Positions 2,282-21,677 of a stretch of DNA of 64,000 nt are shown piece after piece (position 1 is the first letter of the stretch; every line of letters starts with the position of its first letter). This DNA is from Fibrobacter sp. GTDB taxonomy: Bacteria > Fibrobacterota > Fibrobacteria > Fibrobacterales > Fibrobacteraceae. Below the pieces are notes generated by a model that worked only from the letters and a program-made list of their open reading frames with translations, made no database searches and had not been told where the DNA came from. A program made the translations under genes and the position numbers. The stretch is taken from the NCBI GenBank assembly GCA_012523035.1, contig JAAYJH010000041.1, positions 1 to 64,000 on the forward strand, in the 5' to 3' direction.

Positions 2282-3103
2282 TTATGAAACTTTTTTGTTT
2301 TTTGCTCGATGGCTGTTTTTTATCCATTCCTCTTTGTGTACTTCTGGAATATCATCCAAAAGTTTAAGGGTATGTGCTTCTTCTGTCTTGTCTAAAACTT
2401 CTTCTGGAGTTCCAGCATTGACAATTTTACCTTCGTGCATGATAAAAATTCTATCGCTCACATAGTTAGCAAGACCAATGTCATGGGTAACGAAAACAAT
2501 GGTCATGTGCAACTCTTTTTTGAGCTTCATCAAGTAATCCAAAATATTGGCTCTAACACAAGCATCTACCATTGAAGTGGGTTCATCGGCAATCAAAACT
2601 TTTGGCCTTAAAGCAAAAATTCGAGCTAAAAGCATTCGCTGCATTTGACCGCCAGAGAGTTCAAAAGAGTATTTGCCTTCAATGTCTTTTGGAGTTACAT
2701 TCACCGCCAAAAGGCCTTCGTCCACTCTTCTTTTAATCTCTTCTTTAGATGGTTTTTTCTTAAAAATGTTAAAGGCATCTTCTAGCTGAGAGCGAATGGT
2801 GAAAAACTGATTAAAACAGCTAAATGGGTCTTGAAATACTGATTGTACCTCGCCCCAATGGCGTTTTAGGTTGCTAATCTTTCTACCGTTGTAGAGAAAA
2901 ACACCTTTGCTCGCAGGATAAAGCCCTAGCATAATCTTTGCTAGCACACTCTTTCCACAACCAGAACCACCCACTATAGATATGATTTCGCCATCATAAA
3001 TGTCAAAGGACACATCGTTTACTGCAGTGACTTGATTTTTACCTGCACCAAAAGTTTTGCTTACATTTTTTGCAGAAAACACAATAGATTCATTACTCAG
3101 CAT
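2282..3103 (-). CDS. dppF: Dpp/Opp-type ABC transporter ATP-binding protein (DppF-like)
   Basis: This is the second ATPase of the importer operon. Numbered from the GTG at 3109, Walker A is GGSGCGKS (47-54), the signature LSGGQ (151-155) is canonical, and Walker B is VLIADEP (171-177). The H-loop is THDIGLA. The C-terminus is short and lacks the oligo_HPY extension seen in the partner DppD. I place the start at the ATG at 3103, with GAGG upstream, giving an 11-bp overlap with dppD and implying translational coupling. It should pair with DppD to power the DppB-DppC channel. Confidence 0.9.
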   Translation of the reverse strand: MLSNESIVFSAKNVSKTFGAGKNQVTAVNDVSFDIYDGEIISIVGGSGCGKSVLAKIMLGLYPASKGVFLYNGRKISNLKRHWGEVQSVFQDPFSCFNQFFTIRSQLEDAFNIFKKKPSKEEIKRRVDEGLLAVNVTPKDIEGKYSFELSGGQMQRMLLARIFALRPKVLIADEPTSMVDACVRANILDYLMKLKKELHMTIVFVTHDIGLANYVSDRIFIMHEGKIVNAGTPEEVLDKTEEAHTLKLLDDIPEVHKEEWIKNSHRAKNKKVS

Positions 3104-4079
3104 AATCACACCTCACTTCGCGACCAGCTACTATTCTTAAGTTTTGTTTATTCTTTTTACATTCTGGACGAGCTATGGAACAACGATCTGCAAAACGACA
3201 ACCAATAATAGGTTTGTCTAAGCTAGGCGGCGCTCCTTCAATGGCCACAGGCTTGCGCGTCCTTTGGGCTTTTTCTGTGCTAAGCATGGCCCCCATCAAA
3301 GCCTTTGTGTAAGGATGACGAGGGTCTTTAACCACTTGCTCTGCTGTCCCCATTTCTACAAACTCTCCTGCATACATAATGGCTATATTGTCTGCCACAT
3401 GATACAATAAAGGGAGTTCATGAGTGATAAAAATCATGGTGGAGAATACACCTTTATCCAGCAGATCAAATATCATAGAAATCACTTCTTTTTGCGTACT
3501 CACATCGAGTGCCGAAGTTGGTTCGTCGGCTATCACCATTTGTGGGTTCAAAAGAGTGGAAATCCCTATAACTGAGCGTTGCCTTTCTCCGGCCGTCAAT
3601 TGGATAGGAAATGAGTTCAAAACTCTATCTGTATCCATTCCAAATAAATCAAAACGAGTCCTTAAACGCTGGTAAATTTCTTGTGCATTCATATGAACAC
3701 CAGAACTTTGATGGGCAGCAATCACATCGGCGGCTATGTCTTTGATTTTACGAACTGGATTCAAAGCGTTAAAAGCTCCTTGAGGGATCATCGACACCTT
3801 TTGTGCAAGCACATTGGCTCGAATGTCTTCAACAGTGCGATTCATCAAAGATTCACCTGCTACTCGTACATCTCCGCTTGTGGGGTATAAAGGAGGAATA
3901 CACATCCCCATCAGTCCACTCACTAAGGTGGATTTACCGCAGCCAGATTCACCAGCAATTCCTAAAATTTCACCTTGCTTCATTTTAAAAGACACATCTG
4001 TAACAGCGTGTGTTTTGTCTCCAAAACGACCTAAATAATGGAGGCTAAGATTTTCTACTTCAAAGATACTTTTAGACAT
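3093..4079 (-). CDS. dppD: Dpp/Opp-type ABC transporter ATP-binding protein (DppD-like) with altered signature motif
   Basis: The 328-residue ATPase has Walker A GESGCGKS (43-50), a Q-loop near 100, Walker B MVIADEP (181-187) and the H-loop His220. The C-terminus has the oligo_HPY region (HPYTKAL, 255-261) and a Cys-rich segment (CRFADRCSIARPEC) typical of DppD/OppD. The ABC signature reads LTAGE at 161-165 rather than LSGGQ, which may make one of the two ATP sites weak or asymmetric. An AAGGTG site precedes the ATG at 4079. The gene follows dppC by 14 bases. Confidence 0.9.
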   Translation of the reverse strand: MSKSIFEVENLSLHYLGRFGDKTHAVTDVSFKMKQGEILGIAGESGCGKSTLVSGLMGMCIPPLYPTSGDVRVAGESLMNRTVEDIRANVLAQKVSMIPQGAFNALNPVRKIKDIAADVIAAHQSSGVHMNAQEIYQRLRTRFDLFGMDTDRVLNSFPIQLTAGERQRSVIGISTLLNPQMVIADEPTSALDVSTQKEVISMIFDLLDKGVFSTMIFITHELPLLYHVADNIAIMYAGEFVEMGTAEQVVKDPRHPYTKALMGAMLSTEKAQRTRKPVAIEGAPPSLDKPIIGCRFADRCSIARPECKKNKQNLRIVAGREVRCDYAE

Positions 4080-4093
4080 ACAACACCTTACCC

Positions 4094-4939
4094 TTATTTG
4101 CGAAGTCTTGGGTTAAAGACACCTTCCATGGAAGTGTTAATTAGATATAAAGAAAACACAGTCAGTGTAATAATCAAAGTGGCAGGAAGAAATGCAATCC
4201 AAAGTCCATCAGAAAGCGCTCCGTTATCTTTTGCTTGATTCAAAATGATTCCCAAAGAAGTAGAATCTAAAGGACCAAGACCAATCATAGAAATAGAAGC
4301 CTCTGAAAGAATACCAGAAGAAACCTGCATGATAAACACCATAAATACATAAGACAACAAATAAGGAAGCACATGTTTGATCACAATGGTAAGTGAACTT
4401 GCCCCATTGATCTTTGCTAAAGCGATGTGATCTCGACTTCGAAGCGACGAAGCTTGTGCCCGAACAGCACGAGCAGACCAGCTCCATGTAGTGAGTCCAA
4501 TAATCAAGCCTATCAGTGTCAATGAACGACCATCTTTTACAGCAGAACTAATCAACACCAAAATCACAAACGAAGGGATGACTATAAATAAGTTGGTTCC
4601 CATATTGAGAAGTTCATCTATCCATCCACCGCGGAATCCGCCGAACAACCCAATAAAAACACCTAGCGTAGTAGCAATGATACCTGCCACAAAACCGACA
4701 TATAAAGAAGAGCGAAGCCCACTGATTAGTAGAGACATATAATCTCGCCCCAAGTGATCGGTCCCCAAAATATGACTAGCACTAGAAGGAGCATAAGCTC
4801 CGGCCACTACATCTCTAGCGTTGGTATCTACATTGTATAACAAAGGACCAAAAAAAGCTATCAACAGCGTTAGAATAAAGATAGAGATTCCCACCACAAA
4901 CATGGGGGATTTTAATAGATTTTTTAATAATTTAACCAT
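4094..4939 (-). CDS. dppC: Dpp/Opp-type ABC transporter permease (DppC-like)
   Basis: The 281-residue inner-membrane permease has a first membrane helix at about 14-33, then the DppC motif GTDHLGRDYMSLLISGLRSS before the core. The binding-protein-dependent transport domain follows, with the EAA-loop region around RSRDHIALAKINGASS. Five further membrane segments are visible. It is 2 bases downstream of dppB and should form the channel with it. Confidence 0.92.
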   Translation of the reverse strand: MVKLLKNLLKSPMFVVGISIFILTLLIAFFGPLLYNVDTNARDVVAGAYAPSSASHILGTDHLGRDYMSLLISGLRSSLYVGFVAGIIATTLGVFIGLFGGFRGGWIDELLNMGTNLFIVIPSFVILVLISSAVKDGRSLTLIGLIIGLTTWSWSARAVRAQASSLRSRDHIALAKINGASSLTIVIKHVLPYLLSYVFMVFIMQVSSGILSEASISMIGLGPLDSTSLGIILNQAKDNGALSDGLWIAFLPATLIITLTVFSLYLINTSMEGVFNPRLRK

Positions 4940-4941
4940 GA

Positions 4942-6249
4942 TTATTTATCTCCCATTTGTAAGCCAGCTTTTACGCGTGGGTCAAAAAGTGCAATAAGGA
5001 CATCCACTCCAAAGTTTGCGATAAGTACACAAATAGAAATCATTAGAGTACAGCCTTGAATAGTGGCGTAGTCATTTTGCTGAATAGCGGTGAGCATAGC
5101 CATACCCAAACCTGGATAAGAGAAAATCATCTCTGTGATCAACGCTCCTCCGACCATGGTACCCAAAGATTGAGCAAGACCTGTCAATTGAGGGAGCATC
5201 GCATTTCTAAATATATAACCTATGATTCGACCTTCTCGAAGCCCTAACCATTTGGCGTATTTCATATAATCTGTGCCAAGCTCATAAATACTCATCGATC
5301 GCATGCCTGTCGCTTGCCCACTGAGCAGGATAGGGAATACAGAGAAAAATGGAAGCACATAATAAAAACCCAAAGATTTAAAGAAATCCCATGAAAAGCT
5401 GGGCACCTTTTCTGGACCATAGGCCCCCATTGCTGGGAACCAACCTAGAGTAATGGAGAACAAAGCCACCAAAAGCATACCAAAGACAAAGAAAGGTACC
5501 CCATTTAAGAACATGGCTAATGGGAAGAACACCTTGTCAAAAATACCGCGTTTGTAAGCCGCAAAAGCACCTAATAAGTTACCAATTATCCATCCCAAAA
5601 GAATTGTTGGAAGTTGGATAGCCAAAGTCCACGGAAGACTTTCTTTAATAATTTCAATCACTGGTTTAGGGTATTGGCTATAGGACAAACCAAAATCACC
5701 CTTAAACACATTTTTTATATAGACGAAAAACTGTTTTAAGCCAGAAGCAAGTTCTGGATCTTTGGAATAAACCGGAACTTCTTTTTTAAGGGTGTCTTGA
5801 ATTTCGACAGCCACCTCTTGAAGCACAGCTTTCCCGTCGTTATCTAACACAGGATTTCCTTCTGAGTCAAGGACAGGCTGGGTCTCTGTTTTAGCTTTGC
5901 CATCGGCATCTAAAACGGGTTTGCTTTGAACCACAGGGTTCCCCTCTTCATCGAGTATCACTTGCATCTCTGTGAGAGGCAAACCTTTTTCATCGAGTGC
6001 TTGAGGGTATTTGACTGTGCCATCTGCATTGAGTTCTGCCATACCAAAAGAGATCAAAAGAGATTCTTTCTTCTTCTTGGCTTCGTCTGGGGAGAGGCCT
6101 TGAGCAGCCTTACCCATGATAATATCGACTGGATTGTTTTCACCTAAACGAGGCAAGGTAAAGTTAATGGCCACTGCTACAATAAAGGTTAAAAAATACC
6201 AGAATCCTTTTTGCAGGACATAGCGGAGGGTGGGATACTGTTTAAGCAT
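4942..6249 (-). CDS. dppB: Dpp/Opp-type ABC transporter permease (DppB-like) with a repeat-containing periplasmic insertion
   Basis: This is the permease partner of DppC. It has the DppB opening helix (about 13-33), then after a long insert the usual GDFGLSYSQYPKPV segment (184-197) and the permease core with the EAA-like stretch YMKYAKWLGLREGRI. At 435 residues it is about 100 longer than usual. The extra length is at 72-165, between the first helix and the core, and holds about five imperfect repeats around LD-x-(E/D)-G-(N/K/L), for example VLDSEGNPV. This loop should lie in the periplasm, where the binding protein docks. The gene is 13 bases downstream of the substrate-binding protein gene. 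Confidence 0.9.
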   Translation of the reverse strand: MLKQYPTLRYVLQKGFWYFLTFIVAVAINFTLPRLGENNPVDIIMGKAAQGLSPDEAKKKKESLLISFGMAELNADGTVKYPQALDEKGLPLTEMQVILDEEGNPVVQSKPVLDADGKAKTETQPVLDSEGNPVLDNDGKAVLQEVAVEIQDTLKKEVPVYSKDPELASGLKQFFVYIKNVFKGDFGLSYSQYPKPVIEIIKESLPWTLAIQLPTILLGWIIGNLLGAFAAYKRGIFDKVFFPLAMFLNGVPFFVFGMLLVALFSITLGWFPAMGAYGPEKVPSFSWDFFKSLGFYYVLPFFSVFPILLSGQATGMRSMSIYELGTDYMKYAKWLGLREGRIIGYIFRNAMLPQLTGLAQSLGTMVGGALITEMIFSYPGLGMAMLTAIQQNDYATIQGCTLMISICVLIANFGVDVLIALFDPRVKAGLQMGDK

Positions 6250-6262
6250 TTATATCGAGTCC

Positions 6263-8119
6263 TTATTTTGAAAGCTGGAGATTCCAAAGAATTTTTGTGC
6301 CAGATGCAATCCAAGGCAACTGAGGAGGAGCGTAAGGATTTTCGGCTGTTGGCCAATTAGTCCAAACACGATCACTAAACTCATAAAACTGTTCTGGTAA
6401 ATAAGTTAAAGGGATCGCAGGTTGATCTTCCATAAAAATTTGATTCAATTGACGGTAAGCCGCTTTAATCTCATCTCGATCTGTCATTAGAGGAATGGCT
6501 TTGATCAAACTATCTACTTCGGGGCGATATTCTGGAGTTCCGGGCTCGTTGTATCGTCCTATATTATTACCCGCCCAATCTCCAATTGGACGCCAATCTA
6601 AAGAAGACATAACGGCTTCAAAACGACTCCATGGTAAAGAGGGTGAAACATCGGCCACTGGCTTATGCATAATCAAGTCAAAATTTCCTGTACCCATAGC
6701 AGGCCAGTATTGCCCGTCATCTACAAAACCTTCTCGTACATCTATCCCTACTTTACGCATCCCTTCTACTGCAATAGTGACTATAGCAGTCCAGTCTGTC
6801 CAGCCAGCTGGGCATGTAATATAGAGTGTGGGTAGTTTTTCACCTTTTGCGTTTTCAAGATGAGACAATGAGCCATTTCTATTAAAAACAGAGCGAACTC
6901 CTGCTTCTGAAAGCATCTTTTTTACTTCTTCTGCTTTTTGTTCTTCGCTCAAGGAAAAATCCAAACCATACTTCGCATTGTCTTCGTAGTGGATATAATC
7001 TTTTTCAAGTGCAGTGGGCATAATCAAGCCAGAAGTGATATCGGAAGTATAATTTGAAACCGCAAACATTTTTATAGCGGCATAGTCGATTGCAGTGGCT
7101 AAAGCTCTGCGGAACACTTTATTGTTCAAAGGCTCTTTTGTGGTATTGACTACCAACATAGGCATGGCACCAGGTACAAAATAAGGTGGCTCATCAAACC
7201 AAGTTTTTACACCTGCTGGCTTTTTGTGCCAAATACGAGGTACAAAACTCATAGAAGCATCTAAAGAGGCTTCGCGAAGTGCAATGGTGCTATGCTCGTT
7301 ACTTTTGTAAATAGGGTGGACGATATATTTTGGAGCAGGGAGCTTTCCACCGTGAAGGGCTTCATTACCCCAGTAATCGTCTCGGCGTTTTAAGATGATT
7401 TTTGTGGATGAATAATCACTTAAATTATAAGGACCAGAAACGACAGGATTTTTGTCCATTTTCATTTTCTTTACTTCGTCTAAAGAATTGCCATTTTCGG
7501 CTAAAAGTTTAGAAAATATGTGTTCTGGAACAATTCGAATGGCTTGAAGTGCATCTTTAACGCTCAGAGGATTATTTCTTTTTTTCTTGTCGATTATGAA
7601 AGAGACCCTTTCGTTGAGCACCGTCTTTTCTCCACTCACCGAGTCTTCAACAAAAACAGTGTCTACATTTACGCCTGTAATTTGTTCTGTGACAAAACTA
7701 GTGACAGCACCAGAAAAATTAAAACCTAATTCAAAGATGAACTTCACATCTTTAGAAGTAACGGGAACTCCATCACTCCAACGCGCTTTTGGATTAATAT
7801 CTACTACAATACTATCGTTATTGGACAAAGAGTCTACAAGACTTCCTAATAAAGGCTCAAAATCACCATTAAGCGTATTATAAGTGATTAACGGTTCATA
7901 GATTAAGTTAAAGCGTCCACCCACTGGCCATGCAGCTTGCCAACTTTCGGCTAATGGGTTAAATGTTGCAGGAGAACCCCATTGCTGTCCAGAAAGATAG
8001 AGAGTTTCTTGACGAGGTAAAGATGCCTCAGAAGTGTCTTGTTGGTCACAGCTCACTAAAAAGGCTAGCAGCCCAGAAAATACGAAAGCCGTGCGAACAA
8101 ACTGTTTAATACCTACCAT
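6263..8119 (-). CDS. dppA: Oligopeptide/oligosaccharide ABC transporter substrate-binding lipoprotein (SBP_bac_5 family)
   Basis: I chose the ATG at 8119 because GAGGAT precedes it and the protein then begins with a lipoprotein signal: MVGIKQF, a hydrophobic stretch, then LVSC at the lipidated Cys. The mature part is a family-5 binding protein, with LSGQQWGSPATFNPL near the N-terminus, ARWSDGVPVTSKDVKFIFE, and a C-terminal DQPAIPLTYLPEQFYEFSD. It is the first gene of the five-gene operon A-B-C-D-F. Dpp/Opp members carry peptides, but binding proteins of this fold also carry cello- and manno-oligosaccharides in other bacteria. Given the nearby cellulases, cellodextrin is a reasonable alternative substrate that the sequence does not decide. 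Confidence 0.88.
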   Translation of the reverse strand: MVGIKQFVRTAFVFSGLLAFLVSCDQQDTSEASLPRQETLYLSGQQWGSPATFNPLAESWQAAWPVGGRFNLIYEPLITYNTLNGDFEPLLGSLVDSLSNNDSIVVDINPKARWSDGVPVTSKDVKFIFELGFNFSGAVTSFVTEQITGVNVDTVFVEDSVSGEKTVLNERVSFIIDKKKRNNPLSVKDALQAIRIVPEHIFSKLLAENGNSLDEVKKMKMDKNPVVSGPYNLSDYSSTKIILKRRDDYWGNEALHGGKLPAPKYIVHPIYKSNEHSTIALREASLDASMSFVPRIWHKKPAGVKTWFDEPPYFVPGAMPMLVVNTTKEPLNNKVFRRALATAIDYAAIKMFAVSNYTSDITSGLIMPTALEKDYIHYEDNAKYGLDFSLSEEQKAEEVKKMLSEAGVRSVFNRNGSLSHLENAKGEKLPTLYITCPAGWTDWTAIVTIAVEGMRKVGIDVREGFVDDGQYWPAMGTGNFDLIMHKPVADVSPSLPWSRFEAVMSSLDWRPIGDWAGNNIGRYNEPGTPEYRPEVDSLIKAIPLMTDRDEIKAAYRQLNQIFMEDQPAIPLTYLPEQFYEFSDRVWTNWPTAENPYAPPQLPWIASGTKILWNLQLSK

Positions 8120-8321
8120 TGTATCCTCTTTAAGAAATACGAAGAATTTAAGTGAATTCAAAACTAATATAATTTAATCAAATTGAAAATGCACAATAAT
8201 TTCTAAAAAGATATAAAAAACTCTAGAAAAAACTAAAATCCTTTAGTTTTAAGCTTTTATTTTACTTTATAGTTTTTATTGACATGTCCTTCATTTATAA
8301 GGAAGAGATAGGGTAGAAAAA

Positions 8322-8397: not shown

Positions 8398-9765
8398 TTA
8401 TTTTTGTGGGTTTTTTGCGTATACTGCGTTCTTGCCAAGCTCTTCTTCGATACGAAGCAAGCGATTGTATTTGCAAACTCTGTCGGTGCGAGACAATGAA
8501 CCCGTCTTGATTTGACCAGCGGCTGTTCCAACAGCAAGGTCTGCAATAAAGGTGTCTTCGGTTTCGCCAGAGCGATGAGAAATGATTGCAGCGTAGTTTT
8601 TCTCTTGAGCTCTTTTGATTGCCGCTAAAGTTTCAGATACTGTGCCCACTTGATTGACTTTGATCAAAATAGCATTGGCAATACCAGCTTCGATACCTTC
8701 TTCAAAAATAGTAGGGTTAGTGACAAACAAATCATCGCCCACTAAGTTTACTGAATCACCGAGTTTATCGGTCAATACCTTCCAACCTTTCCAGTCATTT
8801 TCATCTAAACCATCTTCGATAGAGAAAATTGGGAATTTTTTGCATAGGCGTTCGTAATAGGCCACCATTTGCTTGCTTGTATAAGTTTTTCCTGTGGATT
8901 TTTTGAAAGTGTAAGTATTGTCTTCGCTATCTCTGTCATTGCCTTTAGTGTCACAAAATTCAGAAGAAGCCACATCTAAAGCGATTTGAATGTCTTTACC
9001 AAAATCGTAACCAGCTGCTTCGGTCGCTTTACCGAGCATAGTCAAAGCTTTTTCAAGGCTCATTACACCTTTAATGGTAAAGCCGTATTTTGCTTTTGGA
9101 TCTTTTTTTAGAGCAACACCTGGAGCAAAACCACCTTCGTCTCCTACAGTAGTGTCAAAACCACCTTCTTCCAAAAGATTTTTGAGAGCGTGGAAAATTT
9201 CGGTCACCATTTGAAGGCCCTTAGAAAAAGAGCTTGCCCCGACTGGAGCAATCATAAATTCTTGAAAATCAATAGGTGCAGAACTGTGAGCACCACCATT
9301 GATTACATTACACATTGGACAAGGCAATGAAACTTTTTTTGTGCCGTGCAATTGTGCAATATATTGATAAAGTGGAATGCCAGCATCTTTTGCAGCAGCA
9401 TCACAAACCGCCATAGAAACGCCCAAAATAGCATTGGCACCCAGTTTCTTTTTGAGCATGCGGTTTCCGTCAAGTTCAATCATTGCTTCATCTATTTCTA
9501 ACTGCTTAGAAACATCCATGCCTACAATTTTGGGAGCAATCTTTGTATTGACATTTTTAACGGCCTTAGTGGTCCCTTTCCCTAAATATACTTTTGCGTT
9601 TCCATCGCGAAGTTCGCAAGCTTCTCTTTCACCAGTAGAAGCACCGCTTGGAACAGCGGCATAACCTTGAATGCCATTGGCCAAAGTCACATCCACCTCT
9701 AGTGTTGGATTGCCGCGAGAATCTAAAATTTGACGAGCTACAATAGCTTTGATTTTTGAAGCCAT
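8398..9765 (-). CDS. eno: Enolase (phosphopyruvate hydratase)
   Basis: This glycolytic enzyme converts 2-phosphoglycerate to phosphoenolpyruvate. The family motifs are complete: [17 protein letters not shown] at the N-terminus, [15 protein letters not shown], the metal ligands in [10 protein letters not shown] and FSIEDGLDE, the catalytic Lys in [10 protein letters not shown], and [18 protein letters not shown]. At 455 residues it is slightly longer than the usual ~430, with extra residues around 260-290 ([14 protein letters not shown]). It is monocistronic with its own terminator. Confidence 0.97.
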
Positions 9766-10329: not shown

Positions 10330-10360
10330 TAAAAAAACCTCTAAATTTATTTTAGAGGTT
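10330..10360 (-). terminator. Terminator of the six-gene exported-protein operon
   Basis: Perfect arms AACCTCTAAA (10336-10345) and TTTAGAGGTT (10351-10360) with a 5-base loop. On the minus strand the hairpin is followed by seven T. It lies 10 bases after the last stop of the operon. Confidence 0.85.
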
Positions 10361-10370
10361 CATTTGAATT

Positions 10371-11426
10371 TTATTTTTTCTTAGGTTTATAATCTTTCTC
10401 GGGATAAAAGACAAGCCCAGTAGTCACTAACAAAGAAACTAATGGTTGCGTGTGATCCTGGCTTAAATCGTAAACTGCAATGCCAGCAAAACGATCTTTT
10501 AACTGAGAAGCAATGGCCTTCATAGTGGGGATACCTACGAAAACAATAGATTCTGTGGGTCCAACAGCTACTTCAGATTTAGAATTTTCATCAAAGGTCA
10601 CTTTATAAGAATCATCTTTAAATACTCGATCCATTAAATCTTTATAAGGAATATACCCTTCGTTTCCACTCCCTCTCCCTTGATGGGCTGTTCCTAAACC
10701 CTTGGCACCCATAAAAGTTTTAGCATAAAGTGGAACAATAGGGACTATTTTTGAAGAAGACACTCCCAAGTCGGTCAATAATTGTAAACCCTTGGAAACA
10801 TCTTTAGCACCGGTATTAGCTTTCAACACCGATTCTTCTTCTGACATTTGGTCTTTAATAAAAGCAGTGATGTAGTCAACTTTATTTAAAAGATCTGGAT
10901 CATATACTTCTACGCCATCCATAGGATAAGTAGTCAAAGAAAGCGTGGTAGATTTTTTTGATTCTAACAAAGTTTCTACTATTTTTTGGAAGTTTTCTTT
11001 GTTTTCTTCATCTAAACCTTGCCAGTCTAACTCTACTCCCGCTAAGGAATACTTTTCAATCCAAGATTGGATGTTTTGAGTGAAATTAGATAAATTCGCA
11101 TCTTCTGTTGCAATGGACTTAAAAGCTTCTTCTGTATCGTAGCCACCTATGACTATAATCAAATTGACTTTATTTTCTTTGGACAATTTTGCCAAAGATT
11201 CAAAGTTCACTTCGTCACTGGGGTCTGTAAAAGCAATATTACCATCTTCTGTCGGAGAGATTCCAACATAATTAATATCAGTTAATAAATTATAACGAAC
11301 ATCATTTGGTGTAAATTGAGAGTATTGCACCCAATAAGGATAAAAGCCTATAATTTTTGCTGGAGCAGCCCATAGAGATGCAACTAAAACAATGCTTAGT
11401 GAAAATAAAATAGTTTTAAATTTCAT
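10371..11426 (-). CDS. GH18-fold (chitinase-like) secreted protein lacking catalytic residues
   Basis: The 351-residue protein has a Sec signal peptide (1-21, ending in ASLWA). A GH18-like TIM barrel follows: KIIGFYPYWVQYSQF on strand 1, the VNLIIVIGG motif (87-95) on strand 3, and the strand-4 motif LAGVELDWQG (128-137). Active GH18 enzymes have DGxDxDWE there. Here the first Asp is Ala, the second is Glu and the catalytic Glu is Gln136. The later M-x-Y-D motif is also lost (VDYITAFIKD). Hydrolysis is therefore unlikely. A lectin or scaffold role, as in known inactive GH18 proteins, is inferred. It is the last gene of a six-gene operon, 15 bases after a lipoprotein gene. Confidence 0.75.
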   Translation of the reverse strand: MKFKTILFSLSIVLVASLWAAPAKIIGFYPYWVQYSQFTPNDVRYNLLTDINYVGISPTEDGNIAFTDPSDEVNFESLAKLSKENKVNLIIVIGGYDTEEAFKSIATEDANLSNFTQNIQSWIEKYSLAGVELDWQGLDEENKENFQKIVETLLESKKSTTLSLTTYPMDGVEVYDPDLLNKVDYITAFIKDQMSEEESVLKANTGAKDVSKGLQLLTDLGVSSSKIVPIVPLYAKTFMGAKGLGTAHQGRGSGNEGYIPYKDLMDRVFKDDSYKVTFDENSKSEVAVGPTESIVFVGIPTMKAIASQLKDRFAGIAVYDLSQDHTQPLVSLLVTTGLVFYPEKDYKPKKK

Positions 11427-11441
11427 ACTTTTACCTATTCC

Positions 11442-12098
11442 TTACTTGATAAGATAATTTATTTTAGAGTTCTTATCTTGACAGTAGCGATTGGGGCGAA
11501 AATCGGGAATATCCTTAGCGTTTACTTTCGCTTGATTAAGGTTTTGTTTAACAGTTTTTTTGTCGTCTTTGGTGCAGTATCTATAGGCCCTGCCGTTTAA
11601 TTCACCAAACATGGAATAATGTAAACTTACCAAAGAATAATCCACATTTTTTAGCTCTTCTTTCACGATATTTAAATCATCATTAGGTTTTTTATTGAGT
11701 GAATTATAGGGTGTAAAAAAATCTTTATAAATATCGACTTTAATGGTATCTTTTATAGAGTCTGCTTGGGAAATAAACAAATCCCAAGCTTCATCATTAG
11801 TTTTATAACCTAATAAATCAAACAACTCTTTAATTACAGAAGTGTCAGTCAAAAAAGCACTTAAATCAGCTATAGAATCAGCAGCACTATAAGCTCCTTT
11901 ATCTTTTAGTTTTTGATTAGACTCTTTGATTTTGGTCTCTACCTGAAAAGATACTACATCTGGATTAATTAAAGCATAATCCGTTACATTAAAATCACTA
12001 GGTAAAGCTGTTTCTATCGCATTATCTACTGCCATAGAAGAACATGCCATCATGATGCTCACCGGAATAAGCCACACTAAATATTTAATTTTTTTCAT
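11442..12098 (-). CDS. Lipoprotein of unknown function in the barrel operon
   Basis: I chose the ATG at 12098, preceded by GGAG at a 9-base spacing, over one at 12113 that overlaps the previous stop. The product begins MKKIKYLVW, has a hydrophobic stretch and a lipobox MMAC. The mature part of about 195 residues is mainly helical and charged, with four Cys-containing positions near the C-terminus (YRYCTKDDK, NRYCQDK). I recognise no family. Its position between an outer-membrane barrel and a GH18-fold protein suggests a lipid-anchored partner of the same envelope complex. Confidence 0.7.
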   Translation of the reverse strand: MKKIKYLVWLIPVSIMMACSSMAVDNAIETALPSDFNVTDYALINPDVVSFQVETKIKESNQKLKDKGAYSAADSIADLSAFLTDTSVIKELFDLLGYKTNDEAWDLFISQADSIKDTIKVDIYKDFFTPYNSLNKKPNDDLNIVKEELKNVDYSLVSLHYSMFGELNGRAYRYCTKDDKKTVKQNLNQAKVNAKDIPDFRPNRYCQDKNSKINYLIK

Positions 12099-12112
12099 AG
12101 TTGCTATCTCCA

Positions 12113-14260
12113 TTAGAAGTTCACCTTTAGACCAGCCATAATGATAAACTTATCAATATCCAAATCATTTTTTTTGCCAATCATGTCTAAGTAAGTAATA
12201 GAATTGTTTAAGACACCGCCTTGCAAGCTAAGGGATGAATTAGGAGCAATTTTATATTTAAGCCCACCCAAGGCGAAGAGTTCTTGAGTTTTTTGAACCG
12301 TTGCAGTAGTGACAAAGACCTCTGCATTTGGATCGTCTGGTGAAGGATATAATCCACCAAATGAAACTGGATCTTTTCCAAAATCTTTATTTAATATTTG
12401 AAGTCCTGCTAAAACACTCCATTTAGAAAGAAAACCGATATCTACCCCAGCATTTAATCGAGTTGTTTTTAATTCAGATTTAGATTCTTTAGCTTCTTCT
12501 GCAGAAAATGCAATATTTAAATCATTATGAAGAGCAAAAATCTCATCAACATTAGCCTTTAATCCAACTGCTATGGTAGTATAATCGATATCTATACTCT
12601 GTCGTTCTATTTTTGAAAAACGAGCATTGAGTTCAAACCATTTTTTATAGTCTGCATCTAAAGAAACTAAGACACCTTGACGATCTGGAGTAGCTAAACC
12701 AAGCGGAAGAGCCATATTCACAGATGGGTCTAAATCATCTACTAAAAACTCTAAGCGTTTCCAAGTATTTGCATTGTAAGCATTTTTATAAAAATGACCA
12801 AGCTTATAGTTGTTATACAAGCGAGACAAAACAAACCTACTATCAGAAGTACCATCGGATTCTAGAGTAGTGGAAGCATTAATTGTCATTAAATTTTGTC
12901 TATTGAGAACATTAGAGTTGTAAATTGAAAAATAAAGATTCTCTAGATTTCCGCTACGAAAAGAAGCGATTACACCGTCTAATAATTGGTTATCATAAAA
13001 TGCGTCGGCATTTAAGATAGAGATGTTCCTTTGATAAAGAGGGGTAGATGCCATTTCTGCCCAAAAATTACTGTCATTTTGTAGGTAGGTAGCTTTTAAG
13101 TCTAAATTGAATCCAAATAGGTCTGCCTTCACAAAAGGTGTGACATAAAAAGCATTGCCATCCTCTTTTAACAAGGTTTTGAGCTTCCAATCTTTTGAAG
13201 TGCTTTCTGTTTTTTGAACATAAAAACTGCTTTCGCCTTCATAGCTATTGATACGACTGATTCCTTCTATCAAGGAATAATGAGTCTTTGTTTTTTGAGT
13301 CAAAGAATCTGCTCTATAACGCCAATTAGACATAGCGAACTCTCCATCCACTCCAAACGAAATAGGAAGAGAAACAAGATTTTTTGAATCGAAACCAGCA
13401 TCTACAGTGAAAACTTTATTGAAGTCATAAAAATAGGCTGCTAGAGGATTAGGGCCTGCCACTGCACGAGTGGAACGAATGCGATCAAATGTATTGACAT
13501 AGTTTAAACCCAAATGAGCTCCATAAGCTTCTAAACCAGTACGACCACCTGCAAAATAACGGTCAGACCAATCAAAATCAAAGAAGACTTGGTCGTATTT
13601 TTTTGCTGTCGCTCTTAGGCGAGCACCTGTAGCTTGAGCATAAATGTTATCTAAGACTCCGAGTTTACCACTATTGTAGTGAACATTTAAACCCTGCAAT
13701 AAGCGGTTATTAGTAGTGTCTAAATTCCTATCTGCTAAAGCATCTACTCTATGTTCTTTAAAAATGGTAGGTTCTTGTAAAATTTCGGATTGAGGAGTAA
13801 ACAAAGTCAATGGCGTGTCTGAAACTCTCAGAAAGCCGAAATTAAAATCCACTATTTTATTTAAAATTTTACCATCGTAAGAAAACCAACGACCAATCAC
13901 TGGGTTAATCCCTTCTTCTTGCGCTTGATGCCAATCTTTATGAAGAGTAAGCTCTACTCGAGCATTAGTCTCTTTGCTTGGACGAGCATCTAAACGAAGC
14001 TTTAGATGGGTGTAAGCCTGGTTGTCTCTAGTTGGACTATTAGGGCTTAAGGGGTCAGAGGTTAATTTAGATGAAACAAAGCCTGCGGTGGCAGTACCTC
14101 CGAGTCGTAAACCCATAACACTATTATCTATAGAGTCTAGTTTCTGAATCATGACTTCTTGTTTTTGCACAAGAGAGTCTGTTGTAGCAAAAGCAGTCAC
14201 AGCAAAAAATAGAAGGACTATTTTAAAAACCATTGTGTGCATATTCTTTTTCAATTTCAT
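12113..14260 (-). CDS. Outer-membrane beta-barrel protein, paralogue 3 of the operon
   Basis: The 715-residue protein has a signal peptide (about 1-25, ending TAFA). A short heptad-like stretch follows (VQKQEVMIQKLDSIDNSV), then GLRLGGTATAGF and many alternating amphipathic strands ending in ...DKFIIMAGLKVNF, with the terminal Phe typical of barrels inserted by BamA. It shares with the next gene upstream the segment PLTLFTP...EP-x-(I/V)-F...N-x-RLLQG-x-N (about 155-200). I do not recognise a named porin family. It is 12 bases downstream of its paralogue and its stop overlaps the next gene. Confidence 0.75.
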   Translation of the reverse strand: MKLKKNMHTMVFKIVLLFFAVTAFATTDSLVQKQEVMIQKLDSIDNSVMGLRLGGTATAGFVSSKLTSDPLSPNSPTRDNQAYTHLKLRLDARPSKETNARVELTLHKDWHQAQEEGINPVIGRWFSYDGKILNKIVDFNFGFLRVSDTPLTLFTPQSEILQEPTIFKEHRVDALADRNLDTTNNRLLQGLNVHYNSGKLGVLDNIYAQATGARLRATAKKYDQVFFDFDWSDRYFAGGRTGLEAYGAHLGLNYVNTFDRIRSTRAVAGPNPLAAYFYDFNKVFTVDAGFDSKNLVSLPISFGVDGEFAMSNWRYRADSLTQKTKTHYSLIEGISRINSYEGESSFYVQKTESTSKDWKLKTLLKEDGNAFYVTPFVKADLFGFNLDLKATYLQNDSNFWAEMASTPLYQRNISILNADAFYDNQLLDGVIASFRSGNLENLYFSIYNSNVLNRQNLMTINASTTLESDGTSDSRFVLSRLYNNYKLGHFYKNAYNANTWKRLEFLVDDLDPSVNMALPLGLATPDRQGVLVSLDADYKKWFELNARFSKIERQSIDIDYTTIAVGLKANVDEIFALHNDLNIAFSAEEAKESKSELKTTRLNAGVDIGFLSKWSVLAGLQILNKDFGKDPVSFGGLYPSPDDPNAEVFVTTATVQKTQELFALGGLKYKIAPNSSLSLQGGVLNNSITYLDMIGKKNDLDIDKFIIMAGLKVNF

Positions 14261-14272
14261 AACCTATACCTC

Positions 14273-16423
14273 TTAAAATCCTACATTAATAGAAGCTTCT
14301 ATCAAGTATTGGGTGTAGCTGTGCTTATAAGAACCTGTTTCGTCGGAATCCGCAACATAATAACTCGGTAGATTTTTATATTCTGTCGAGCTACTTGTAT
14401 TGTATGTATTTTTGACGCCTATTTGCCCTACACTCATATTCAACCAAGCATTTTCAGAAAATCCGTAGTCTATACCAGCCATCCATTGCGTTTGGGTTCC
14501 CTTTAAGAGCGGCACATCATGACCAGGGCTAGTGACAGCTCTAAAACTGGCAGCGATGTCATTCATTTCTGTATTTATTAACTGAAATCCACCGCTAAGA
14601 GCTAAACGAGGAAGGAATGGAATGTATAAACCTGCGTTGATAAAATCTGTATTTAGGTTGGAATTTCCTACACTAATAAACTCCACTTTTCGTTGTGCGT
14701 GTTTATAACTACCAGAAATTGCAAGTTCAGAAAACGGTGTTTTAGAAAGTGCATTCACCCCTTTTAATGGTAAAACTTTGGCACCACCGCCATATTCTAC
14801 ATAAGAGGCTTTATCAAATGAAGCCATTGGTTTCACTTGACGATAAATGCTATATAAACCTTGAGCTTCAGCAAAATCACTCCAATTCACCTTCAGAGTT
14901 GCGGTTCCACCTTGTCTATTTGCTGTTGCAAATCCATTGGGTAAAGCCAACTGTAAAGCGGGATCTGATAGAGATTCTAATAAAGCTAATTCAGATTTTG
15001 TATATACGGTGGAAGTCCATGAGTTTTTATTAAATGGAGCTATATTGTAACTCTTTGTTTGACCGGATCCAATAGCATTGTCATCAGTCCCCAATGTAGT
15101 AGCTACAGGGGTAAATTTTGGACTAAAGTAGTATAAGGCTCCAAATGAACTGTAAAGAGGTGCATTTACACCGTATTTAATGTTATGCCCATCTTTGTCG
15201 GTATTTAATATGCGTCTTGCAAAAAACTGCGGAGATTGTGCTAGATTATTGAACCAAAGGCTATCATTTCGAATGACATTACTTTGAAGTGCGAGACTCC
15301 AAGAGGAGTTAATCTTATAGCCAGCATCTAGCGATACCAATAAAGCCGTTCCTCTTTCGTCTTCTTTTTTTAATTCAATAACTCCATTTTCAAAAGCTTT
15401 AAGGTTTAATTTTTCAACTTGATCGTTATCTGTAGCAAATTCTACCACAGTATTGAGTGTGAGCTTGTCACTATTTAAGATTTTAGCGACATCAACACCA
15501 GCACGAGCACTCATCACAGATGTTTTTTGTTCACTGAGATCAAAAGGATTGACTGGAGTGAATTGAAAGTCATCGTTATCATCCTTATGATAGGTATAGG
15601 TGAAACTTTTTTTGTCGTCAAAAATGTACATCCATGTGAAACCAATCAACAAGTTCTTATCTAAAGGTAGAAGTTCTATGTTACTGGACAATAAAAACTT
15701 ATCCATATTGGATGCCAGAGAAGCACCAGGAATGTCTTTTTCGGTGGGGATAAGATTTTGGTCTGGATTAGGAAGGATATTACCAACAGCTCCAGTAAAA
15801 TCTAAAACTTGAACTCGACGCAAACGCGCAGCAAGAGCTTCTGCTCTTAGCTCACCCACACTTTTATTAAAATAGTGTCTAAACTGAAGGTTAGCACCTT
15901 GTAATAAGCGTTGATTCCCGTCTAACATAGATTGCTCTTGAGCCATTTGGCGTTTTTGAGCAAAAACTAATGGTTCGTACATGACATCTATGCCTGGTGT
16001 ATAAAGAGTCAAAGGAGAGTACTGTTGACGGAAATTACCCACTACCCAATAAAAACTCGAAGCAATATTTCCTTCAATATTTAACCAAGGAGTTGAAATA
16101 CTCTTGGATGGCGAAGCAAAATAGTTTTGCATCCCTGCTTGCATTCGAAGTATTGCATTGACACGAACCGGTTCCCAAGGGCGAAATGTAAAAGCTAAAT
16201 CCGCATTGACAAATTGCATCCGTTCTGTGTCTGGCATTCTATTGATTCCGTCTAAATCTTGTTTAGAAGAAAATGTGGAATTCAAAAGCACCGCACGAAT
16301 ATCACCTCCAACTTGTAAACCTCTTTTGGCTTCTATAGAGTCCACTTTTTGTTCGAGGAGACTTGTGCTTGCCGAAACCGAAAGAGCGATCAAGAGGATA
16401 GAAACTAAAAACTTACGAGCCAT
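14273..16423 (-). CDS. Outer-membrane beta-barrel protein, paralogue 2 of the operon
   Basis: I place the start at the ATG at 16423, where AAAGGTG precedes a clean signal peptide (MARKFLVSILLIALSVSAS). A longer reading from 16486 would overlap the upstream gene and spoil the signal. The mature protein starts with a short coiled stretch (LEQKVDSIEAKR), then LQVGGDIRAV and a barrel ending YLIEASINVGF. The segment SPLTLYTPGIDVMYEPLVF followed by NQRLLQGANLQF matches paralogue 3 in order and spacing. It probably forms a large surface-exposed pore or adhesin; function is unknown. Confidence 0.75.
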   Translation of the reverse strand: MARKFLVSILLIALSVSASTSLLEQKVDSIEAKRGLQVGGDIRAVLLNSTFSSKQDLDGINRMPDTERMQFVNADLAFTFRPWEPVRVNAILRMQAGMQNYFASPSKSISTPWLNIEGNIASSFYWVVGNFRQQYSPLTLYTPGIDVMYEPLVFAQKRQMAQEQSMLDGNQRLLQGANLQFRHYFNKSVGELRAEALAARLRRVQVLDFTGAVGNILPNPDQNLIPTEKDIPGASLASNMDKFLLSSNIELLPLDKNLLIGFTWMYIFDDKKSFTYTYHKDDNDDFQFTPVNPFDLSEQKTSVMSARAGVDVAKILNSDKLTLNTVVEFATDNDQVEKLNLKAFENGVIELKKEDERGTALLVSLDAGYKINSSWSLALQSNVIRNDSLWFNNLAQSPQFFARRILNTDKDGHNIKYGVNAPLYSSFGALYYFSPKFTPVATTLGTDDNAIGSGQTKSYNIAPFNKNSWTSTVYTKSELALLESLSDPALQLALPNGFATANRQGGTATLKVNWSDFAEAQGLYSIYRQVKPMASFDKASYVEYGGGAKVLPLKGVNALSKTPFSELAISGSYKHAQRKVEFISVGNSNLNTDFINAGLYIPFLPRLALSGGFQLINTEMNDIAASFRAVTSPGHDVPLLKGTQTQWMAGIDYGFSENAWLNMSVGQIGVKNTYNTSSSTEYKNLPSYYVADSDETGSYKHSYTQYLIEASINVGF

Positions 16424-16476
16424 TCGTGCACCTTTAATTTTTTGTATAGTCAAATTCATATTCATTGTGTACCTCA

Positions 16477-18741
16477 TTAAAACCACATTTTTGTTTCAGC
16501 AGTGATATAATGACCAGACCAATCGTTTTCAGAAACGGTTTCGTCGGAATGAGTCATCCATTTATAACGCATATGTAAGCCTACACGATCAGAAAAATCC
16601 CAGTCAAACCCAAAACCAACCGCGGTTTGAAGGTAGTTTATTGGAGCTTTTTCAATGTAAGTATATCCATTCAATAGCGAATAATAATCGTGAGATTTCC
16701 CGACACCATATCCATTGGAAGCATATGATTCTAAGTCACGAGCTACATAAGCATGGTTAGAACGCCATGTTTCTAAACCAAAAATTCCAACCATATGTAA
16801 ATTTGGAGTGATAGCAACAGCTGGTTCAAACTGTCCGTAAAAACTCCACAAAAGCATACCAGATTGGGATTCACTATAAGCAAGTGGAGCTATAGTAGTG
16901 GAAACGCCAGAAACTGCAGCGTGCCCAGCCATCATGATGTCGCGGTCTGTATTAAACCAATGACCAATATCGTAACCAGCATCGATAGAGAGATAAGAAG
17001 ACCACTTGGTATGTGAAGGGATCTTTTTTTGTTTCACTTGATCTATGTTTTCATATGCCACAAAAGTTTCCCACAATTCCCATGTACCCCCGCGAAGTCC
17101 ACCTTGTTGACGATACATTTTAATACCTGTGTTGTCTACATCTTCTGAAAGGACTCCTACTCGTTCTACATAACCATTAGGAATACCATTTCCTGAGTCT
17201 GCCCAAAACAATGGATTGTGTTTGGTCCAAGAGTTGGTGCTCTCCCACATAGCACGACCATTGAGTCTATAGTTGAATAATAAGACATCGTTTCCTTCTT
17301 TAACTTGCCTGTGTTGACCATATTGAAGGTCTAAACGGCCTCGATTGAAGACAGGCTCTACTTTTAAGTTCAATCCAGTTAAATTTGGAGCATACCTAAG
17401 GGATCCGGAATTCAAATAAAACTCATCTTTACGCCATCCGGGAAACCGAGAAGGATTGGTTATAGAATACGGAGAAAAGAAGTCTTTACTAAAGTATATA
17501 CCTTCTAAAGTGATAGGGACATTTTCGATGTGCTTGGATTGAGCTTTCACATAAACACCGAATTCTGGAGAAGCTACAGAACGATCATAAGATGTCTTTT
17601 CGTAACTAGAGTCTCTTCTACCTGGAGGAGGAGGGACTTTATTGAAAAGAGAAGAATCGGTAATGCTTAGGGCCAAATCCGCCATTAAGTAAAACTTTGA
17701 ATTTATATTACCCTTAAAATCTATGGAAGCCACATGGGTATTTAAAAGGGTAGGCGGCATGTTTTCTCTAACCCATTGACTGTTAAATTCTGGTTCATAA
17801 ACAATAGCTTTATCAAAAGCCATGCCCAAATAATTAACACCAACAATCATATCACCCGCTATTTTTTCTTTGGCTAGGCGAGCATGATAAACATCTCCAC
17901 GAAATGTATAGTCACCGAACATTTCTAGTTCACTGGGTTGACCACCAAACATAGTTAAACCGTCTCTGGTGCCTGGGTCCATATCTGCAGGTTGTGAAAG
18001 CATGAACTGAGCTTTTAAGTCCATAGGAAGTTGGTAAAAGTTTACAAAAACTCCACCAAATGAACGGTTAGTCCAAAAAGCCCTACCCCCTTCTTTTACT
18101 GGCTTAAAGGATTTCTCTTTATAATAAGTACTGACCGTTTTCTCTTCCTCGAAAAGCTCATATTGAGATAAGAAGCGAGGGCTAGTTTCGCGTTCCCACA
18201 TGGTGAGTGGACTCGCATTTGCCCAAATAACACCTCCAGCGGTCACATAAGCTCCAAAAACTCCGGCGCGAATATCGACTCCTACATTCATTTCTTCGTT
18301 TACAGTAGGTCCATTGTAATCTGTGGAGTGGTCAAAAAGCACTCTTTCATATTTGTAAGAAGGATTCGAAGAAGGACGAGTGGAAAGGTGGTTAGCGTAG
18401 AAGCCACTCAAATCAAATGGAAAAGCTAAGTTTGTCCATAAAGTTAAGTATGAGTTGGGCATGCCTACTATAGACATTTGAAATAGAGCATCTACCGCGG
18501 TTCGAGCCAGGTCACTAGATTGTAGACCAGATGCTTTAGGATATTCAAAATTTTTCACTCGAAACACCATATACCCTGAAGCCGCAAGCGGGGCATCGTC
18601 TTTACCGATGAGCGTGGACTCCATATTGTTTGCCAAGGTGTCTAGCAAGCTGTCTACTTCTGCAATTTTTGCTTCGGTGCTTATGGCCCAAGAGCTTGTT
18701 AGTAAAGAAGCTATAAAGAAAGAAACTATTTTTTTACGCAT
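16477..18741 (-). CDS. Outer-membrane beta-barrel protein, paralogue 1 of the operon
   Basis: The 754-residue protein has a signal peptide (MRKKIVSFFIASLLTSSWA), an acidic heptad-like stretch (IAEVDSLLDTLANNM) and a beta-strand-rich body ending HYITAETKMWF. The landmark ASPLTMWE...RFLSQYELF (about 175-195) corresponds to PLT(L/M)-x-x in the two downstream barrels, so all three look homologous though divergent. AGAGG precedes the ATG at 18741. The gene follows the jelly-roll gene by 9 bases. Transport or adhesion is inferred; no family name is known to me. Confidence 0.75.
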   Translation of the reverse strand: MRKKIVSFFIASLLTSSWAISTEAKIAEVDSLLDTLANNMESTLIGKDDAPLAASGYMVFRVKNFEYPKASGLQSSDLARTAVDALFQMSIVGMPNSYLTLWTNLAFPFDLSGFYANHLSTRPSSNPSYKYERVLFDHSTDYNGPTVNEEMNVGVDIRAGVFGAYVTAGGVIWANASPLTMWERETSPRFLSQYELFEEEKTVSTYYKEKSFKPVKEGGRAFWTNRSFGGVFVNFYQLPMDLKAQFMLSQPADMDPGTRDGLTMFGGQPSELEMFGDYTFRGDVYHARLAKEKIAGDMIVGVNYLGMAFDKAIVYEPEFNSQWVRENMPPTLLNTHVASIDFKGNINSKFYLMADLALSITDSSLFNKVPPPPGRRDSSYEKTSYDRSVASPEFGVYVKAQSKHIENVPITLEGIYFSKDFFSPYSITNPSRFPGWRKDEFYLNSGSLRYAPNLTGLNLKVEPVFNRGRLDLQYGQHRQVKEGNDVLLFNYRLNGRAMWESTNSWTKHNPLFWADSGNGIPNGYVERVGVLSEDVDNTGIKMYRQQGGLRGGTWELWETFVAYENIDQVKQKKIPSHTKWSSYLSIDAGYDIGHWFNTDRDIMMAGHAAVSGVSTTIAPLAYSESQSGMLLWSFYGQFEPAVAITPNLHMVGIFGLETWRSNHAYVARDLESYASNGYGVGKSHDYYSLLNGYTYIEKAPINYLQTAVGFGFDWDFSDRVGLHMRYKWMTHSDETVSENDWSGHYITAETKMWF

Positions 18742-18750
18742 GCAAACCTC

Positions 18751-19488
18751 TTAAATCTCGTTGCGGAATGGATAACCGGCAGGCCCTTGGTAAGGTTGCC
18801 CTGTCTTTTTGATCACAATATCATCTATCCAAACTTTAAATTCAGTGTTTTCATCTTTTCGAACTTCGAGTCTAAAACCCTTAAAGTTGGCCCATCCAAA
18901 AGGCATCAAGACTTCTCGTTGATTTTTTTCATCCCAATAAACTCCTGTTTCTCCAAAAAGCTTTAAGGGGATACTAAAATGAGTCCAGTCGGTGGTGATT
19001 TCACCAAAACTTTTGGAGCGAAGCTTGACTTGCAAAGATTCTCCACTACTTTTCACACCATCATCGACCAGCACAAACAAGGCATTTTCTCCACCCTTGT
19101 TTCCTTTGATCCAAAACTCGATAACCCCTTCTTCCATATAGGGAGTAAGGTCAACAGAACCAGCTATACAGATGGCGACTCCAGAATAATCATCGGCGAT
19201 CAACTCAATTTCCATGGAGAGAGCCCCTTCGATGGCATGGCGGTCTGTCATAAACGGCTCTGGATTTTCTCGAGGGTATTGATAGGTGTAACCACCCCCT
19301 CTAGGAATCGATTCTCTCATCACTACGGTGACAATGTCTTTATCTGGACGAAAAGGCTTTGGTGTTTTAGGTGTGAAGCGATGGGCGTCGCGGTCACGAT
19401 AATCCCCAAAACTAGCCATAGATATAGAAACTAAAAGCAATATAGCGAGCATATGACTTCTTAGACTTAAATACGGTGTTTGTTTCAT
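18751..19488 (-). CDS. Secreted jelly-roll (CBM-like) protein, first gene of the barrel operon
   Basis: I chose the ATG at 19488, preceded by TTGGAG, over a TTG at 19506. The product (245 residues) has a signal peptide (about 1-28, ending MASFG) and a mature domain resembling galactose-binding-like or CBM11/CIA30-type beta-sandwiches: a strand with GVIEFWIKGNKGG, DWTHFSIPLKLFGE, FKGFRLEVRKDENTEFKVWI and the closing DDIVI typical of this fold. It lacks catalytic motifs, so carbohydrate or cell-surface binding is inferred. The following five genes lie 9, 53, 12, 14 and 15 bases apart. Confidence 0.65.
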   Translation of the reverse strand: MKQTPYLSLRSHMLAILLLVSISMASFGDYRDRDAHRFTPKTPKPFRPDKDIVTVVMRESIPRGGGYTYQYPRENPEPFMTDRHAIEGALSMEIELIADDYSGVAICIAGSVDLTPYMEEGVIEFWIKGNKGGENALFVLVDDGVKSSGESLQVKLRSKSFGEITTDWTHFSIPLKLFGETGVYWDEKNQREVLMPFGWANFKGFRLEVRKDENTEFKVWIDDIVIKKTGQPYQGPAGYPFRNEI

Positions 19489-20262: not shown

Positions 20263-20297
20263 TTATACTTAGTTTTATTTTATTTTTGAAGGTTTAT

Positions 20298-21677
20298 ATG
20301 CATACTTTATATAAAAAATCAACGATGCTAATTATTTTATTGCTTTCTTTTGCATTTTTCGCTTGCGATAATGGAGGAGGGCTTAGCCACGATCCATCAG
20401 GTAATAATGGAGCTAGTTCTGCCGCTGAACCTACAAGCTCTTCGAGTATAAAGGTCGAAAAAGTGGACTATTCTAAGGCGAGAGCCATGAATAAAAGACT
20501 GGGACGAGGAATTAATTTTGGTAATTCTTGGGAAGCTCCAGGATTATTAGATAATGGATGGGGTAACAAAATCCAAGATGAATGGTTTGATATTGTGAAA
20601 GAAGCAGGGTTTACTTCGATCCGTTTGCCCAACCGATTTAGCCAAAATGCCGAAGAAGAAGCCCCATTTACCATTAGCCAAGATCGTTTTGAAGCTTATA
20701 AAAAACATATAGATAGAGCTCATGAACTGGGTATGCCCGTTATAGTGGATTTTCACCACTATGATGAGTTGCTCGACGATATTAAACAATCTACCATAGA
20801 AAGAAATCGGTGGAGTGCAGAAATTAAAAATTTAAATGCTGAAATTTCAAAGCTAAATTTAGAACTCACTTCTAATGAGCTGAAAATGGACCGAATTTTG
20901 ACTTATGGTGCAGAGATTGCTCAAGAAATTGAAGCAGGATTTAGAGCCGAATTAATAGTTAAAGAAGCAAGAATAGTTGAGATAGAAGGGCTTATGAATG
21001 TGAAAAGTAAGGAGATGGAAAGATTTGCTGCGATTTGGGAGCAAGTGGCTGAGGCTTTAGATGTTTATCCCGATTCTATGCTTGTTTTTGAGGCTTTTAA
21101 TGAGCCCAACGGTATTTCTAATGAGATGGTGAATCTAATCAATAAAACCGCTTACGATGCTATCAGAAAACATAGTAAGGGAAAAACTATTATTTTGAAT
21201 CCTAATGAATTTGCGAAGTTTTATAAATTAAAAGATATGGTGATTCCTAAAGATGGTAATTTAATTATCACTGGGCACTACTATGAACCCTATGAATATA
21301 GCCACCAAGGGCATGGTTATAAATGTTTAGGAGATGAGGCCTGGGCCGGAGATAAAGAGGCTGTCCAGAAAATGAAGGCGGATTTTGACGAGTATGTGGC
21401 TATGGCTCAAGAATACTTTCCCGATGTGAATGGTGGGCATATCCCTTTGCATATGGGAGAATTTGGTGTCTCAGGTAAAAGTTGCAGGGGCGATGAAGAA
21501 GAAAACCCATCCGATGAGAGAAGAGCCCTCTGGACTAAAGAGCTGATTCAAATTGCTGAAAGCCACGATATTTCTTGGCACTATTGGGGTTTTGCTGGAG
21601 TGGGTGGTTTTGAAGCCTACGATAAAAAAGAAAAGGCGTGGTATCCAGGTATGCTAGAGGCACTTACTCAAGATTAA
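20298..21677 (+). CDS. GH5 endoglucanase lipoprotein with a coiled coil inserted in the catalytic domain
   Basis: I chose the ATG at 20298, preceded by GAAGG, giving 459 residues. The lipoprotein signal ends FFAC (Cys23), followed by a Ser-rich spacer to about 55. The GH5 barrel has GRGINFGNSWEAP (69-81), GFTSIRLP, PVIVDFHHYDE (147-157), the acid/base FEAFNEPNG (Glu269), GHYYEPYEYSHQG, and the nucleophile LHMGEFG (Glu388). Between the HHYDE loop and the helix ERFAAIWEQVAEAL lies an extra charged helical pair at about 163-238 (AEIKNLNAEISKLNLEL and following) that GH5 enzymes normally lack. The enzyme should cut beta-1,4-glucan at the cell surface. A terminator follows at 21686. Confidence 0.9.
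   Translation: MHTLYKKSTMLIILLLSFAFFACDNGGGLSHDPSGNNGASSAAEPTSSSSIKVEKVDYSKARAMNKRLGRGINFGNSWEAPGLLDNGWGNKIQDEWFDIVKEAGFTSIRLPNRFSQNAEEEAPFTISQDRFEAYKKHIDRAHELGMPVIVDFHHYDELLDDIKQSTIERNRWSAEIKNLNAEISKLNLELTSNELKMDRILTYGAEIAQEIEAGFRAELIVKEARIVEIEGLMNVKSKEMERFAAIWEQVAEALDVYPDSMLVFEAFNEPNGISNEMVNLINKTAYDAIRKHSKGKTIILNPNEFAKFYKLKDMVIPKDGNLIITGHYYEPYEYSHQGHGYKCLGDEAWAGDKEAVQKMKADFDEYVAMAQEYFPDVNGGHIPLHMGEFGVSGKSCRGDEEENPSDERRALWTKELIQIAESHDISWHYWGFAGVGGFEAYDKKEKAWYPGMLEALTQD

Follow-up and report, generated by a model that had tools for sequence, protein, structure and literature searches.

The locus that we investigated has three kinds of described counterparts: the Sus-like systems (SusC/SusD) of the Bacteroidota, the carbohydrate porins, and the family-5 importers of cello-oligosaccharides. 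Sus-like systems bring together in one locus surface glycan-binding proteins, a large outer-membrane barrel, a glycanase and downstream catabolism. The carbohydrate porins LamB/ScrY, OprB and chitoporin are outer-membrane barrels of 16-18 strands that are genetically tied to sugar use. The importers of the Thermotoga TM0031 type and Pyrococcus CbtA-F share a five-gene make-up, and we know of no outer-membrane barrels at the Thermotoga and Pyrococcus importer loci. Fibrobacter is a leading degrader of cellulose in the rumen and, to our knowledge, possesses neither a cellulosome nor an identified Sus system. In F. succinogenes S85 the mechanism of cellodextrin transport was stated to be unknown, and two ABC proteins similar to cbtF and cbtD (FSU_1687 and FSU_1688) are upregulated on cellulose (PMC6851124).

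The locus described here would be Sus-like in role, but it is unrelated to SusC/D: it has no SusD and no plug domain, it encodes two or three different barrels from an unrelated family, and an ABC importer takes the place of the Sus-type inner-membrane steps. Unlike the carbohydrate porins, its barrels have 22 or more strands, share no common sequence family with those porins, and are linked to separate binding proteins. The importer has the five-gene make-up of its Thermotoga and Pyrococcus counterparts but is here linked to outer-membrane barrels.

The window (the whole stretch of 64,000 nucleotides that was analysed) belongs to a 2.20 Mb genome of the Fibrobacteraceae. Six open reading frames occupy positions 10371-19488 of its minus strand (Table 1), and each N-terminus resembles a signal peptide by eye. 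Provided that B starts at MARKFL and the lipoprotein at MKKIKY, the genes are separated by 9, 53, 12, 14 and 15 bases from 5' to 3'. This agrees with the preliminary description, which had read the genes as one operon of six exported products with these spacings. The strong terminator that it placed at the end of the operon is recognizable as a hairpin; however, "strong" is generous, because only 3 of the 11 stem pairs are G-C. The first product had been called jelly-roll-like and turned out to be a CBM30 protein, which scores 61.1 bits against a curated cut-off of 27 and finds its nearest solved structures in the CBM30 module 1wmx/2c24. Cellulose binding by this family is known in F. succinogenes (PMC3079729). 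The same 64 kb contain, beside the barrel operon, the ABC importer and the GH5 cellulase, a GH45 endoglucanase (35920-37350, plus strand, E=1e-43). A 743-residue protein with no Pfam match is encoded at 24972-27203 (minus strand), close to lipid A and Dsb genes.

Table 1. Features of the barrel operon and its surroundings, in positions of the window.
Feature	Position	Strand	Evidence
First gene of the operon: cellulose-binding protein (CBM30)	18751-19488	-	Pfam CBM30, E=1.6e-16
Barrel A, 754 aa, large outer-membrane beta-barrel	16477-18741	-	AlphaFold; C-terminal Phe
Barrel B, 716 aa, outer-membrane beta-barrel	14273-16423	-	AlphaFold; C-terminal Phe
Barrel C, 715 aa, paralogue of B	12113-14260	-	Profile-profile match with B; C-terminal Phe
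Lipoprotein, no Pfam family	11442-12098	-	Lipobox
Pseudo-enzyme of GH18 fold with Gln in place of the catalytic Glu (ELDWQ)	10371-11426	-	PF00704, E=2e-28
Terminator-like hairpin 3' of the operon	10335-10361	-	Consensus scan only
ABC importer: family-5 solute-binding lipoprotein, two permeases, two ATPases	2282-8161	-	
Enolase between ABC importer and operon	8398-9765		
Divergent GH5 endoglucanase, conserved neighbour	20286-21677	+	Pfam Cellulase, E=1.5e-33

The three barrels had been described as related. Barrels B and C are indeed homologous (BLAST 8e-14; profile-profile probability 100), whereas A has no BLAST similarity to either and matches B marginally when profiles are compared (probability 83, E=9e-6). 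Kinship is therefore demonstrated for two of the three only, and A appears, by sequence comparison, to be either separate from the B/C family or a very remote relative, at most weakly related. AlphaFold models built on alignments of 39-40 orthologues predict 22 strands for B (pLDDT 84.1, pTM 0.85) and about 24-26 strands, by our own count, for A (pLDDT 76.7, with some weak regions). In both models a single N-terminal helix leads directly into strand 1, and a plug domain is absent. We speculate that these predicted helices may join the barrels. Profile searches of A, B, C and of the 39-40 orthologues of A and B likewise detected neither a Plug nor a TonB-receptor domain, and no SusD is found among the operon products; the earlier statement that SusC/SusD are missing thus stands.

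None of the three barrels matched a curated Pfam family. Among the orthologues, the generic family OMP_b-brl was found in 7 of 40 sequences for B and in 4 of 39 for A, Porin_4 was found in 2 of the 40 B sequences, and no carbohydrate-porin family was matched for either barrel. Foldseek searches of solved structures with the A and B models returned only generic barrels such as chitoporins, AlgE (an alginate exporter) and usher pores, with TM-scores no higher than about 0.5. That the barrels are ordinary known porins, the outcome that would have overturned the preliminary description, was checked through these profiles and structures and is rejected: they fit no family and match only generic folds. 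A part in gliding or type IX secretion machinery is not indicated: the only match in that direction, of A to CglE, is sub-threshold (E=0.043), vanished in the family-wide scan and is probably noise. The C-terminal phenylalanine, the usual signal for barrel assembly, is present in 358 of 360 sequences (134/134 for A, 128/129 for B and 96/97 for C). In B, near-invariant residues abound in two loop stretches, one at about 134-170 that holds the PLT landmark and the other linking strands 13 and 14 (about 387-502); these loops may line or close the pore. In one locus (L155; G136:C15:113218-115431) A and B are seemingly fused in a single 1638-residue reading frame, reflecting either a sequencing error or a real fusion.

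The lipoprotein carries the lipobox MMAC; the lipobox pattern recurs in 88 of the 94 matches to its family, and its cysteine is invariant across 18 aligned orthologues. The last product is similar to PF00704 over its full length. The catalytic glutamate of the GH18 motif DxxDxDxE is missing in all 78 Fibrobacteraceae orthologues, replaced mostly by Gln but also by Gly, Ile, Leu, Val, Met or Asp, and is kept in both orthologues from outside this family; the block around GLG..GSGNEG remains conserved. The GH18 fold had been called inactive, which this loss bears out, and chitin degradation by this protein is rejected for the same reason. In two class relatives (L034 and L036 in genomes G158 and G159) a catalytically intact GH18 (DIDWE/DLDWE) adjoins a locus of the CBM30-A-B-C form (type I, see below); these loci would offer a view of the stage before catalysis was lost.

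The operon corresponds to FSU_2007-2012 of F. succinogenes S85, a match based on the order of the locus tags and the annotation of the end genes: FSU_2007/Fisuc_1525 encodes CBM30 only and FSU_2012/Fisuc_1530 encodes a GH18 protein (CBP-9), with four genes between them. FSU_2012 has been treated as a chitinase and tied to a measured activity (PMC6851124). However, FSU_3030 is a further GH18 gene of S85 (PMC3079729), and the measured activity therefore need not come from FSU_2012. The position of the catalytic glutamate is occupied by Gln in the F. succinogenes MAGs of our set (e.g., L136). The S85 papers that we consulted handled FSU_2007, FSU_2012 and the cellulase EGF as single proteins, and their main texts mention the end genes and not the four middle genes FSU_2008-2011. 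The locus is real and conserved, and as a unit it is undescribed in the open literature that we searched.

Barrel A was found in 145 of 168 Fibrobacterota genomes, as a rule in a single copy, and is the best conserved part of the locus; relatives of C, B included, occur in 145 Fibrobacterota genomes, and B adjoins A in nearly every locus. The complete order CBM30-A-B-C-lipoprotein-GH18, mostly with the divergent GH5 gene, recurs in 89 Fibrobacteraceae loci, a count in which some genomes occur in two collections and which includes Fibrobacter intestinalis ATCC 43854 (L205). This is far beyond chance and answers the question, raised in the preliminary description, whether related genomes keep these genes together. 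Outside the Fibrobacteraceae the locus consists mostly of A, B and a protein that we call CBMbig, composed of CBM30 and CBM11 and, in its long forms, GH51; this is the domain set of the S85 cellulase EGF (FSU_0382; CBM30/CBM30/CBM11/GH51). The window genome has a CBMbig-type gene on another contig (G000:C30). The tree of A shows a clean split (100/100) between type I loci (CBM30-A-B-C) and type II loci (A-B-CBM30/11/GH51). This split, together with the observation that genome G158 carries both types, reveals two old forms of the locus. In a scan with a single short pattern, the best 80 of 102 relatives were all from Fibrobacterota, and a spread of A on plasmids is rejected, as no match was found.

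In type II loci of several families a set of genes for a family-5 solute-binding protein (SBP5), two permeases and two ATPases adjoins A and B, and in about nine loci a GH94 phosphorylase lies beside the type II A-B pair. Outside the Fibrobacteraceae, a genome has only 2-6 SBP5 genes, yet in 16 of 22 genomes, and in 12 of 14 genera, one of them lies no farther than 10 kb from A, against 0.4 expected; these genomes are mutually related and were chosen by us, so that the linkage is weaker than a nominal p of 1e-23 would imply. In the window the importer lies 2.2 kb downstream of the operon, behind the enolase gene, and in two other Fibrobacter loci (L143 and L137) it is found, whole or mostly, upstream; within the Fibrobacteraceae it is usually not adjacent. 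The closest PDB entries for the SBP5 of the window are sugar-type family-5 proteins of Thermotoga (4pft, 1vr5, 2o7i and 4jsd) rather than peptide binders, and the composition of the gene cluster is that expected of a family-5 cello-oligosaccharide importer, as far as sequence can tell. The functional unit probably includes this importer.

At the level of whole genomes, GH9 cellulases are present in all 145 genomes with A and absent from 9 of the 23 without it (kinship ignored), so that A is lacking in all nine genomes without GH9. GH94 is widespread across the phylum with or without A; its genomic co-occurrence was therefore rejected as an argument, and only its position beside A and B is informative. 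Three genomes (G019, G006 and G165) have no detectable A despite four to at least nine GH9 genes, with at least nine in G019; a different route of entry or incompleteness of the genomes may be the reason. TonB-dependent receptors are present in all these genomes, and an argument from their absence in the phylum was discarded. One of only two such receptors in the window genome is encoded in the window (42662-44683, minus strand, Pfam Plug E=3e-15) and is a rival candidate for sugar import across the outer membrane.

We consider it probable (roughly 0.58) that the operon encodes an outer-membrane complex for the capture and entry of cellulose and cellodextrins. The CBM30 protein and the catalytically dead GH18 cleft would hold beta-1,4-glucan chains at the cell surface, the lipoprotein would help to anchor or assemble these binding parts, and A, B and C, as large barrels without a plug, would admit cellodextrins to the periplasm, from where the family-5 ABC importer would carry them to the cytoplasm for phosphorolysis by GH94. 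The binding role of the CBM30 and GH18 parts is supported by their families and by the S85 literature, in which the GH18 counterpart was reported as a cellulose-binding protein of the outer membrane (PMC3079729) and the CBM30 counterpart was detected in envelope and extracellular fractions. We infer the physical complex, its surface location, the driving force and the passage of sugars through A, B and C, the latter from gene linkage. What favors the entry of cellodextrins is the linkage, across the phylum, of the barrels with GH94, an importer of the sugar type and a protein that bears CBM30; this last protein is kept with A and B in both lineages of the locus. Against entry count the TonB receptors, which could import; the occurrence of GH94 regardless of A; the usual location of the importer elsewhere in Fibrobacteraceae; the cellulolytic genomes lacking A; and the expression of the S85 GH18 gene, which is constitutive, with a protein 1.3-fold lower on cellulose than on glucose. 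A surface complex for the binding or uptake of plant or chitin-like glycan had been suggested from the beginning. The plant glycan is now supported by CBM30, the reported cellulose binding of the S85 GH18 counterpart and the linkage to importer, GH51 and GH94, while chitin is disfavored by the lost glutamate; uptake would follow from the linkage.

The main alternative to capture and entry is a platform for adhesion or enzyme display, in which the barrels anchor the CBM30 protein, the GH18-like lectin and elsewhere the EGF-type cellulase, and sugars enter via other porins. Two of the parts are binding proteins, one with a counterpart that is reported to bind cellulose in the outer membrane, and a permanent surface organ would suit the constitutive high expression of Fisuc_1530 (>90th percentile with little variation; EGF, Fisuc_3111, exceeds the 99th; PMC6204037). 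However, three separate barrels of 715-754 residues far exceed what anchoring needs, and uptake is suggested by their recurrent linkage to GH94 and an ABC importer; we regard display without transport as an appreciable but clearly less likely explanation. It is unlikely that the barrels are meant for a substrate other than cellulose or work as general porins, with the cellulose genes as mere neighbors. Such a role would fit the retention of A by the great majority of Fibrobacterota, among them lineages with differing habits, and the substrate-independent expression of the S85 GH18 gene, but a CBM30-bearing protein is present at every A-B locus with sufficient flank, and no genome without GH9 has A. 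An export channel for cellulases or surface glycans, suggested by usher pores and AlgE among the structural matches and by a weak EpsL match of one B orthologue, is more doubtful still, as the TM-scores reflect barrel geometry only and the neighboring genes encode an importer and catabolism instead of secretion or synthesis.

The genes of the operon thus represent one ancient, phylum-wide unit, and our findings suggest that what has been annotated and described as a chitinase binds glucan but is catalytically dead. Candidate genes for cellodextrin transport, if capture and entry is the correct reading, are now named, and the question can be tested with few proteins. A further step, which we offer tentatively, is that the Fibrobacterota possess a TonB-independent machine of their own, in which cellodextrins, or even individual chains of cellulose, enter the periplasm through giant barrels that have no plug. 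If true, this would be a phylum-wide functional equivalent of the Sus system, built from unrelated parts.
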